Positions 1,065 to 2,859 of a stretch of 49,169 nt of DNA are shown piece after piece; position 1 is the stretch's first letter, and every line of letters starts with the position of its first letter. The notes under the pieces are model-generated. The model was not told where the DNA came from and ran no database searches. It saw only the letters and a list, made by a program, of their open reading frames with translations. Made by a program: the position numbers and the translations under genes. The DNA is from Candidatus Enterocloster faecavium (GTDB lineage: Bacteria > Bacillota > Clostridia > Lachnospirales > Lachnospiraceae), in NCBI GenBank assembly GCA_019118585.1, contig DWYS01000100.1, positions 1 to 49,169 on the forward strand, read 5' to 3'.

Positions 1065-1093
1065 TTGCGCCCTTCCGCTTCATTCGCTATAAT
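1065..1093 (+). promoter_or_regulatory. Promoter of the mgtE leader transcript
   Basis: TTGCGC at 1065-1070 and a perfect TATAAT at 1088-1093, separated by exactly 17 bases. Transcription would begin near 1100, giving a leader of about 335 nt before mgtE. Confidence 0.75.
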
Positions 1094-1137
1094 AGCTATG
1101 TGATCAAAAAATGAGATATTAAAAGAGAGGTGAGATT

Positions 1138-1224
1138 ATGGACGGCAGTAGTGGTGGTCGAAGTACAGACAGGGCTTTCATATATGGTCGAAGTACAGGC
1201 GGCCCTGGGCCGTTCATGTCTTAA
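1138..1224 (+). CDS. Candidate leader peptide (28 codons) upstream of mgtE
   Basis: ATG at 1138 sits seven bases after AGAGAGG (1124-1130), a respectable ribosome binding site, and reads 28 codons to TAA at 1222-1224. The peptide begins MDGSSGGRSTDRAF and ends GGPGPFMS; the block GRST occurs twice because the DNA repeat units are 30 bases, ten codons, apart. The reading frame covers the 5' arm of the hairpin 1173-1187/1239-1253, so a translating ribosome would disrupt it. It resembles in arrangement, not in sequence, the Gly/Pro/acid-containing leader peptides mgtL and corL upstream of enterobacterial Mg2+ transporter genes. That it is translated or regulatory is inference; a chance ORF inside a structured RNA is the alternative. 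Confidence 0.4.
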   Translation: MDGSSGGRSTDRAFIYGRSTGGPGPFMS

Positions 1225-1249
1225 CGGGATAGCTGCGCCTATATATGAA

Positions 1250-1335
1250 TGCCATTGTCCGTTTCTGAAACTGCACTGCGTCGGCGAAGGCGCAGGCGTG
1301 GAAAGCCTTGGGAAATCAGTGACAATGGTATTTTT
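1250..1335 (+). terminator. Candidate intrinsic terminator inside the mgtE leader
   Basis: TGCCATTGTC at 1250-1259 pairs along ten positions (one G-U) with GACAATGGTA at 1321-1330 and is followed directly by TTTTT. The 61-nt apical part can itself fold (CACTG/CAGTG, a GTTTC/GAAAC hairpin and a GC-rich stem). A long-looped terminator of this type would stop transcription before mgtE unless the 5' arm is captured by the competing upstream stem. Confidence 0.4.
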
Positions 1336-1434
1336 ATGCCCATTTTTACTGAGATTTTGGCTCTGCGCCTGCCTTTGCGCCAGGGAGCTGGATTGGCTCA
1401 CAAAAACAAAAACGCGTGAAGGAGGAACAGAACA

Positions 1435-2859
1435 ATGAGTGTAAAGAATCTTACGGATCTTCAGCAGGATAATAATCAGAAGTCCATCCATCCGGATTAT
1501 CAGGCGGAAATTGTAGATATCATCCGCAGCAATCTGACTCCCGGATTAAAGCGGGAAAAGCTTCTGGCCTATCATGAAAATGATATTGCGGTGGCGTTGG
1601 AGCAGCTGACAGCGGACGAGAGGGGCAGGCTCTACTGCCTGCTGGATGCAGAGACGCTGGCAAACATTTTTGAATATTCAGACAACCCCAGTCAGTATAT
1701 CAATGAGCTGGGAATACAGAAGCGGGTAGCAGTCTTATCCCGCTTTGAGATCACCACAGTAGTGGACTGCCTCCGCCAGATGGACAAGGCGGACCGGAAT
1801 ACGCTGCTGGAACTGCTGGACGAGGATACCAAGCGGGAGGTCCTGCTCTTAAATTCATTTGATGAGGATGAAATCGGAAGCAGGATGACCACCAACTATA
1901 TTGCGGTTCCGGCAGGCATCGGCGTGCGCCAGGCCATGCACGATCTGATCGACCAGGCGGCGGAGAATGACAACATTTCCACCATTTACGTGGTGGATCA
2001 GGATAAGACCCTGGTGGGAGCCATTGATTTGAAGAAGCTGATCATCGCCAGGGAGGGAACGGAGCTGTCGGCTATTACCATGACCTCCTATCCCTACGTT
2101 TATGCAAATGAGGAAATCGAGGACTGCATCAGCCGGATGAAGGACTACTCCGAGGACTCCATTCCGGTGCTGGATTCCGACAATAAGCTGCTGGGAGTAC
2201 TGACCTCCCAGGACGTGATGCAGCTGGTAGACGATGAGATGGGAGACGATTATGCCAAGCTGGCCGGCCTGGCTTCCGAGGAGGATTTAAACGAGCCAAT
2301 GGCCAGGAGCATCCACAAGAGACTTCCCTGGCTGATCATACTTCTGTTTCTGGGAATGGTGGTGTCCAGCGTGGTGGGCGCCTTTGAGGGAGTGGTAGCC
2401 CAGCTGCCCTTGATCATTGCCTTCCAGTCTCTGGTTTTGGATATGGCGGGAAATGTGGGAACCCAGTCACTGGCGGTCACCATCCGCGTTCTGATGGATG
2501 AGAATGTGAGCGGCGTTCAGAAACTCTATCTGGTGGCAAAGGAAGCAAAGGTAGGACTGGCCAACGGCCTGGTACTGGGGGTAATGTCCTTTCTGTTCAT
2601 TGGCCTGTATCTTCTGACGGTTAAGGGACAGAGTGCTCTTCTGTCATTTTCCATATCCTTCTGCGCCGGCATCGCGCTGCTGGCCTCCATGGTGCTGGCC
2701 AGCTTGTCGGGAACCATCGTTCCCCTGGCGTTTAAGAAGATTCACATTGACCCGGCGGTGGCTTCCGGACCGCTGATTACCACCATAAACGATCTGATGG
2801 CGGTTGTGATCTACTATGGACTGGCCTGGCTGCTTTTGATCCATGTGATCGGACTTTAA
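1435..2859 (+). CDS. mgtE: Magnesium transporter/channel MgtE
   Basis: Homodimeric Mg2+ channel of the cytoplasmic membrane, 474 residues, full length for the family. Order: cytosolic N domain of acidic helical repeats (about 30-150), two CBS domains (about 150-280, including MTTNYIAVPAGIGVRQAM and DSIPVLDSDNKLLGVLTSQD) that close the pore when Mg2+ is bound, a connecting helix, and five membrane helices from about residue 295. Signature residues DMAGNVGTQSLAVTIR in the membrane region and PAVASGPLITTINDLMAV, which carries the pore acidic residue, are present. Start ATG has GGAGG about eight bases upstream. It is transcribed from the 1065 promoter through a long leader that probably regulates it. 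Identification is confident. Confidence 0.96.
   Translation: MSVKNLTDLQQDNNQKSIHPDYQAEIVDIIRSNLTPGLKREKLLAYHENDIAVALEQLTADERGRLYCLLDAETLANIFEYSDNPSQYINELGIQKRVAVLSRFEITTVVDCLRQMDKADRNTLLELLDEDTKREVLLLNSFDEDEIGSRMTTNYIAVPAGIGVRQAMHDLIDQAAENDNISTIYVVDQDKTLVGAIDLKKLIIAREGTELSAITMTSYPYVYANEEIEDCISRMKDYSEDSIPVLDSDNKLLGVLTSQDVMQLVDDEMGDDYAKLAGLASEEDLNEPMARSIHKRLPWLIILLFLGMVVSSVVGAFEGVVAQLPLIIAFQSLVLDMAGNVGTQSLAVTIRVLMDENVSGVQKLYLVAKEAKVGLANGLVLGVMSFLFIGLYLLTVKGQSALLSFSISFCAGIALLASMVLASLSGTIVPLAFKKIHIDPAVASGPLITTINDLMAVVIYYGLAWLLLIHVIGL

Follow-up and report, generated by a model that had tools for sequence, protein, structure and literature searches.

A conserved short-ORF leader upstream of type I mgtE genes in Clostridia, probably a ribosome-controlled transcription attenuator

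The type I mgtE gene of the window (the whole stretch of 49,169 nucleotides from Candidatus Enterocloster faecavium analysed here, contig DWYS01000100.1) is preceded by a short open reading frame (ORF) belonging to a leader-peptide family whose specificity for mgtE is supported by coordinate-based searches in related genomes. On balance we favour the reading that this leader is a ribosome-controlled transcription attenuator, which would be on while a ribosome stands at the first codons of the short ORF, with low Mg2+ as the most likely signal. The ORF family, the conservation of its peptide, the conservation of an antiterminator helix (P2) and of an intrinsic terminator, the association with mgtE and, in silico, a dependence on ribosome position are supported by the analyses described below; that Mg2+ is the signal, that ribosomes are held up rather than dropping off, and that the regulation has the sign given here is what we infer from them.

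The product of the window's mgtE gene matches the curated model NCBIfam TIGR00400 at 261.2 bits (cut-off 232.75) and the solved MgtE 2yvx at E=1.3e-48, and the source genome (86% complete) contains one match to it. The features of the gene and its leader are collected in Table 1. Transcription would start at about 1100, judged by eye from the possible promoter; a promoter consensus scan did not report this promoter, the first hexamer of which fits at only 3 of 6 positions. An earlier note on this DNA had described a 28-codon ORF with AGAGAGG seven bases before its ATG, a hairpin within and beyond this ORF, and a terminator-like stem followed by five T and sharing bases with the hairpin. All three are present: the ORF lies as described, the hairpin (P2) forms 14 of its 15 pairs, and the terminator, with the extent listed in Table 1, has bases 1249-1253 in common with the antiterminator. 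The leader folds with a z of -2.75, and none of 100 shuffles was as good. The same note interpreted the arrangement as an attenuation layout, and this interpretation is supported, the ORF and the pairings having been found conserved in relatives and no Rfam riboswitch having been detected. An additional helix pairing the start region with the end of the ORF (P1) was absent from that note; it is because P1 exists that the predicted switch depends on a ribosome on the first codons.

Table 1. Coordinates of mgtE and its leader features in the window
Feature	Position	Strand	Basis or remark
Possible promoter TTGCGC (1065-1070), 17-base spacer, TATAAT (1088-1093)	1065..1093	+	by eye
Shine-Dalgarno AGAGAGG of leader ORF	1124..1130	+	seven bases before ATG 1138
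Leader ORF MDGSSGGRSTDRAFIYGRSTGGPGPFMS, stop included	1138..1224	+	28 codons, TAA 1222-1224
Helix P1, 5' strand (start codon region)	1138..1146	+	pairing statistics
Conserved N-terminal codons 2-10 (acid at 2, rare CGA-AGT codons)	1141..1167	+	pN/pS
Helix P2, predicted antiterminator, 5' strand, codons 12-17	1173..1187	+	group alignment and family-wide pairing
Helix P1, 3' strand (leader ORF end)	1209..1217	+	pairing statistics
Helix P2, predicted antiterminator, 3' strand, overlaps terminator 5' strand	1239..1253	+	group alignment and family-wide pairing
Intrinsic terminator, 5' strand	1249..1259	+	covariation in the window's group
P3, terminator-loop segment GGCGCAG, can pair with post-terminator RNA	1289..1295	+	complementarity
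Intrinsic terminator, 3' strand	1321..1331	+	covariation in the window's group
Terminator U-tract	1331..1335	+	TTTTT invariant in the window's group
P3, post-terminator partner of 1289-1295	1363..1369	+	complementarity
Shine-Dalgarno AAGGAGG of mgtE	1419..1425	+	read from sequence
mgtE, 474 aa, type I MgtE	1435..2859	+	Pfam MgtE_N, CBS, MgtE

Short ORFs led by a Shine-Dalgarno (SD) sequence upstream of related mgtE genes have a common N-terminus with the consensus MDSCDSxGRS and with variants that include MDGSSGSRST, MDSPDG and MDNCDS. A position matrix was derived from a first set of leaders that had been selected visually and through a regular expression for the N-terminus. Type I mgtE loci with 300 or more upstream bases numbered 176; at a score of at least 5, leaders of this family were found ahead of 108 of them, the scored leaders having a median ORF length of 31 codons, and at the same threshold no such ORF was found at the other 68 loci. 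Among held-out upstream regions the score was reached in 43 of 91, compared with 0/91 on the opposite strand and 1/455 shuffles; L209, which is among the 43, has the same peptide as a training leader, and the held-out loci represent related lineages rather than independent samples. A search independent of the matrix, for SD-led ATG ORFs starting M[DE]xx[DE], recovered 35/91 held-out regions, 0/91 reverse strands and 3/455 shuffles, while control patterns of the same form gave 1/91 and 16/455 (held-out regions and shuffles, basic residues) or 9/91 and 33/455 (hydrophobic residues). A divergent form occurs in Bullifex porci, a spirochaete, where a type I MgtE that is 62% identical in the best segment is preceded by the variant leader MEEGSSRRSVQ (L063); mgtE and leader might have been transferred there jointly.

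The association with mgtE was assessed from the genomic positions of pattern and model matches. A strict leader pattern had nine matches in 299 Lachnospiraceae genomes (reversed control, 2), eight of them roughly 200-460 bases upstream of mgtE in the same orientation and the ninth inside cdsA. A 44-position sequence model (R1) gave 16 matches at E<=0.008 in 150 genomes. By coordinates 15 of these best 16 lie upstream of mgtE, seven of the 15 being leaders in the model's own alignment, and the remaining one lies inside mnmG; below the best 16, matches are mostly not near mgtE, with three upstream of it among the matches listed (G079, G136, G142). R1 has a single match in the source genome. Across the class the signal was weak, with 7 matches at E<=0.01 in 245 genomes; among the matches listed, three of the seven are upstream of mgtE (the window, G537 and G627) and four are not.

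Conservation at the level of the peptide is limited to the N-terminus. In 94 non-redundant leaders, pN/pS for codons 2-6 is 0.28 in frame versus 0.84 and 0.61 in the other frames, and it is 0.49 for codons 2-10 and 0.93 for codons 11-20. An acidic residue is found at position 2 in 93 and at position 5 in 96 of the 108 scored leaders, the score itself rewarding both; the window's peptide has Asp2 but Ser5, with no acid at position 5. Pro4 occurs in 6 of the 108. An initial set of 63 leaders was selected by the regular expression on the N-terminus and the sets of 94 and 108 by the matrix built from them, and the acidic-residue counts and pN/pS values in all three lean towards the motif (redundancy thinning reduced 63 leaders to 54 and, later, 110 to 94). 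Because the 94 leaders were selected by peptide, the calculation was repeated on 15 mgtE leaders picked by the nucleotide model. Here codons 2-6 gave 0.29 in frame versus 0.79 and 0.81, and codons 11-20 gave 0.91, with two of the 15 (L140 and L144) read from the wrong start and adding noise. The later codons keep RNA pairing rather than peptide. The motif GGPGPF near the end of the window's peptide, to which the earlier note had drawn attention, is not conserved and was rejected as a functional motif: relatives have the N-terminus in common and not the C-terminus, and the conserved part is the acidic N-terminus with its rare codons.

These values also bear on whether the leader could be an RNA-only element, that is, a new riboswitch-like structure with an open frame present only incidentally. 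Such an element would be expected to show the strong nucleotide conservation that is present (ATGGACAGTTGTGAT, CGAAGT) and the conserved pairings described below, but the low pN/pS of codons 2-6 is confined to the reading frame, in the leaders picked by the nucleotide model as well, and Rfam has no match. Moreover, the Shine-Dalgarno sequence and the start of the ORF are conserved in the family, the former (GAGGTGAGA) being invariant across alignments of the window's group, so that translation is predicted. We consider an RNA-only element very unlikely.

Codon usage in the leaders is biased. CGA accounts for 86 of 124 Arg codons at leader positions 6-13, against 27 of 925 in 35 ORFs of the window. 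Among Ser codons at positions 3, 6 and 10, AGT accounts for 149 of 163, against 49 of 870. Leaders from many genomes are here compared with the long ORFs of one window, some of which are perhaps antisense. In other bacteria, leader attenuators are known that respond to tRNA charging or to drugs. Both the preference for the rare codons AGT and CGA, which is strong, and the three Ser residues in the consensus would suit an attenuator with a signal other than Mg2+, such as uncharged tRNA for AGT Ser or CGA Arg, a drug acting on the ribosome, or a different metal that MgtE carries. However, the motif contains no single recurring amino acid, the gene in the window is an MgtE by curated models, near-exact matches of the leader lie ahead of mgtE, and similar short ORFs occur in tandem with the M-box on type II mgtE genes (called by homology), and we regard a signal other than Mg2+ as unlikely.

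Within the window's group the terminator covaries clearly, P2 moderately and P1 weakly. In six aligned leaders of this group, 96.9% of the terminator's cells are paired and four pairs are changed on both sides, and 0/500 shuffles reached either measure. For P2 the group alignment has 80.9% of cells paired and five pairs changed on both sides, with 13 to 27 of 500 shuffles reaching the observed value on four of five measures and 87/500 on the fifth. Two slid controls equalled or exceeded P2 in two-sided changes, with 6 and 5, yet had only 59.6% and 42.7% of their cells paired, far below its value; row L050 of the P2 alignment is out of register and counts against the helix. For P1, 79.6% of cells are paired, which 125/500 shuffles reached, and its covariation score was reached by 37/500.

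Across the family, P1 joins the SD and start region to the end of the same ORF, its 3' end lying a median of 2 bases before the ORF end (mean z -2.33; p<=0.05 in 54 of 94 leaders). P2 joins codons ~11-17 to the 5' side of the terminator, with p<=0.05 in 31 and p<=0.01 in 15 of the 70 leaders, out of 94, that have an accepted terminator. An earlier analysis of 54 leaders agrees (33 and 32 of 54). In the window alone P1 is not significant (z -0.8) and P2 is borderline (p 0.05, or 0.119 with other bounds). P1 and P2 cross, and a pseudoknot could make them compatible. The idea that P1 and the U-run following it form a first terminator was not supported (26 U-runs versus 20.3 expected in 94 leaders).

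Since 18 of 40 shuffled leaders likewise yielded terminators of accepted strength, single terminators are uncertain outside the window's group. The same figure, together with the commonness of SD-led short ORFs, is what would be expected had a chance ORF come to lie before an ordinary, unregulated intergenic terminator. That reading was already disfavoured and is hardly credible: a chance ORF was rejected on the held-out recovery, with the matrix and without it, and on the near-exact matches ahead of mgtE, and neither the specificity for mgtE nor the covariation of the terminator, unmatched in 500 shuffles, fits with it. In one subgroup (L078, L094, L099, L105, L112 and L114), with leaders resembling MDSCDxxGQHNMGGYT, the logic may differ because the terminator-like hairpin can fall inside the leader ORF.

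The segment GGCGCAG in the terminator loop had been assigned two alternative partners. It is indeed complementary to both 1233-1239 and 1363-1369, but the alignment columns of the upstream partner, 1233-1239, are not conserved in the window's group. Complementarity between the terminator loop plus 5' arm and the RNA after the terminator reached p<=0.04 in seven of nine group members, a result that holds for the whole stretch rather than for 1289-1295/1363-1369 alone. This pairing could form only after read-through. The complementary stretches are 1254-1320 and 1340-1430 in the window, and occupy the same region in L033, L167, L048, L049, L004 and L198.

To relate these structures to translation, leaders were folded without pseudoknots under a 30-base ribosome mask, the readout being the probability of the terminator base. 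For the window, RNA free of ribosomes gave 1.00. Placing the P-site at codon 3 lowered this to 0.36 and at codon 5 to 0.24; the probability recovered to 0.80 at codon 7 and to 0.98-1.00 over codons 9-19, was still 0.94 at codon 22, fell to 0.08 at codon 25 and stood at 0.99 on the stop codon. A ribosome close to the end of the ORF is therefore predicted to free the antiterminator as well. The nine group members averaged 0.85 without a ribosome, falling to 0.40 at codon 3 and 0.39 at codon 5 (or 0.86, 0.53 and 0.59 when the 5' flank was shortened). Among the nine, L048 and L051 showed no dip at early codons, and in L004 the dip came later, at codons 7-9. The contrast was small when all 70 terminator-bearing leaders were taken together (0.47-0.54 at codons 3-5 versus 0.67-0.70 at 9-13). 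In 49 leaders with better terminators, comprising the nine of the window's group and 40 with stricter terminators, the values were 0.42 at codon 3 and 0.54 at codon 5, versus 0.75-0.78 at codons 9-15 (late over early, p=4e-7; against shuffles, p=9e-6). Shuffling the intervening RNA of these 49 abolished the effect, giving 0.71-0.75 throughout, and a change of at least 0.3 was found in 21 of the 49 and five of the nine in the window's group, compared with 1/49 for shuffle means. In silico, then, the antiterminator is freed mainly when a ribosome is on the first codons, and the conserved codons are where the folding places this predicted "on" position.

The mechanism that we favour would run as follows. 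A ribosome would start the leader ORF at 1138 and be held up on its first codons, or repeatedly fail and re-start there, so that the start region stays covered; the slowing codons would be those for the acid at position 2, usually also at 5, together with the rare AGT and CGA codons. With the start region covered P1 would be blocked, codons 12-17 would be free to pair with 1239-1253 as P2, the base of the terminator would be broken, and mgtE would be transcribed. A ribosome that had advanced to codons 9-19 would cover the 5' strand of P2, allowing the terminator to form and turning mgtE off, and with no ribosome P1 would form and, in the window's group, the terminator would again be favoured. 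RNA polymerase may outrun ribosomes in Firmicutes, which would speak against such a mechanism. Low Mg2+ would act through its weakening effect on ribosomes that translate acidic N-termini, an effect reported for mgtL.

The Mg2+ effect could instead operate by drop-off only, in the manner of mgtL, with the ribosome dissociating after the acidic codons at low Mg2+ and the naked RNA forming the antiterminator. Acids at positions 2 and 5 fit the destabilising pattern given for mgtL (EPDP) and mgtQ (Asp2, Glu5) in the respective accounts (PMC11282234, PMC8092293), and outside the window's group naked RNA is not clearly terminated (terminator probability with no ribosome, 0.52). In the nested fold, however, naked RNA prefers P1 and the terminator (1.00 in the window, 0.86 in the group of nine), and we consider drop-off alone rather unlikely, although repeated failing and re-starting would blur its distinction from hold-up.

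Compared with known systems, the leader proposed here to act by ribosome hold-up resembles mgtL of mgtA (Escherichia coli, Salmonella) in being a short ORF with early acids before a Mg2+ transporter gene. According to PMC11282234, low Mg2+ causes ribosomes to be lost on the EPDP of mgtL, a leader that acts through Rho, and read-through to the transporter gene depends on the state of translation when Mg2+ is low, as we would expect here. Peptide and RNA have no evident kinship, the transporter and the phylum are different, and the Rho-dependent terminator of mgtL contrasts with an intrinsic terminator here whose antiterminator strand lies inside the ORF; with this intrinsic terminator conserved in the window's group, the leader was not classed as mgtL. 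The mgtQ ORF of Salmonella mgtCBRU, as described in PMC8092293, needs Asp2 and Glu5, has Pro4, and is similar in these acid positions and in the choice between alternative stems by a ribosome on the first codons. Unlike the present leader it is an 8-codon ORF between two genes and controls the translation of mgtB, whereas here the likely target is transcription termination. Despite the shared acid positions, the two differ in peptide, RNA, step controlled and phylum, which suggests convergence rather than membership. The mgtE motif of Thioalkalivibrio is also a structured mgtE leader; as described in PMC11109978, it is exclusive to Thioalkalivibrio, is a riboswitch candidate rather than an upstream ORF, and has a model that extends over mgtE's own SD and start. 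No published description of the present leader was found in the searchable literature, the scope of which excludes most subscription journals, preprints and supplements.

In Firmicutes, the M-box is the usual explanation for how Mg2+ controls mgtE. Named in Rfam as a Mg2+ aptamer (RF00380), the M-box likewise provides cis-control in mgtE leaders, but as an aptamer that senses through the RNA directly, and the leader in the window does not match it. The earlier note had seen no M-box in the sequence; the window has no Rfam match at the gathering threshold, with 900-1600 giving four chance-level matches at E<=10; nor was an M-box matched in the source genome (86% complete) or any Rfam family in 20 related mgtE loci, and the M-box and other Rfam RNAs were rejected as the identity of the leader. 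M-boxes were found in 20 of 150 Lachnospiraceae genomes, under stricter search filters that can lose weak matches. Going by position, 14 of the 20 precede type II mgtE genes and none precedes a type I mgtE locus listed in the homology search; the other six are not near any mgtE in that listing. Type II MgtE is ~28% identical to the window's, and type II genes were called by homology only. In one genome (G081) the type I gene has the leader ORF and the type II gene the M-box.

In 12 of the 14 M-box leaders an SD-led short ORF starting M-D lies between the M-box and mgtE, compared with 78 of 700 shuffled regions; a 13th match is the start of mgtE itself and was left out of the count. Examples are MDSSPGRSRQ and MDAGASYHS, and eight of the 12 are of the latter kind, are not independent, and overlap the mgtE start out of frame. 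The order M-box, SD-led M-D ORF, type II mgtE was observed in L247 (G040), L248 (G142), L251 (G157), L258-L263 and L265-L267. Such leaders possibly place two Mg2+ sensors in series, and because they exist the link of the type I leader to Mg2+, which we infer, is strengthened. Several type II mgtE genes that lack an M-box match carry leaders of the form M[DE]..GRS, those of the window's own genus included (MEGRSRKMEADNYHKR). In that genus (L035-L042), and in L274 and L277, the type II leaders have a GTG-start ORF, MEGRS..(M/L)(E/K)AD.., with G-R-S coded GGT/GGG CGA AGT; L041 diverges (MEGRSCKMKADESGYVHRR).

We suggest, tentatively, that Clostridia independently evolved a general ribosomal Mg2+ sensor, in which an M-D leader ORF precedes both mgtE classes, coupled in type I genes to an intrinsic terminator and placed behind the M-box on many type II genes, and in which mgtE would be on only while a ribosome occupies the first codons. 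In a large set of Clostridia, mostly from gut and rumen, one mgtE class is without an M-box and often has a conserved leader peptide instead. If the proposal is confirmed, evolution has at least twice made a Mg2+ gauge out of the weakness of ribosomes on acidic N-termini, and genes with the M-box and leader ORF in tandem would allow two sensors to be compared on the same RNA. If true, two chemically different Mg2+ sensors control one channel, and mgtE has a gate that responds to a ribosome that is present but not progressing.
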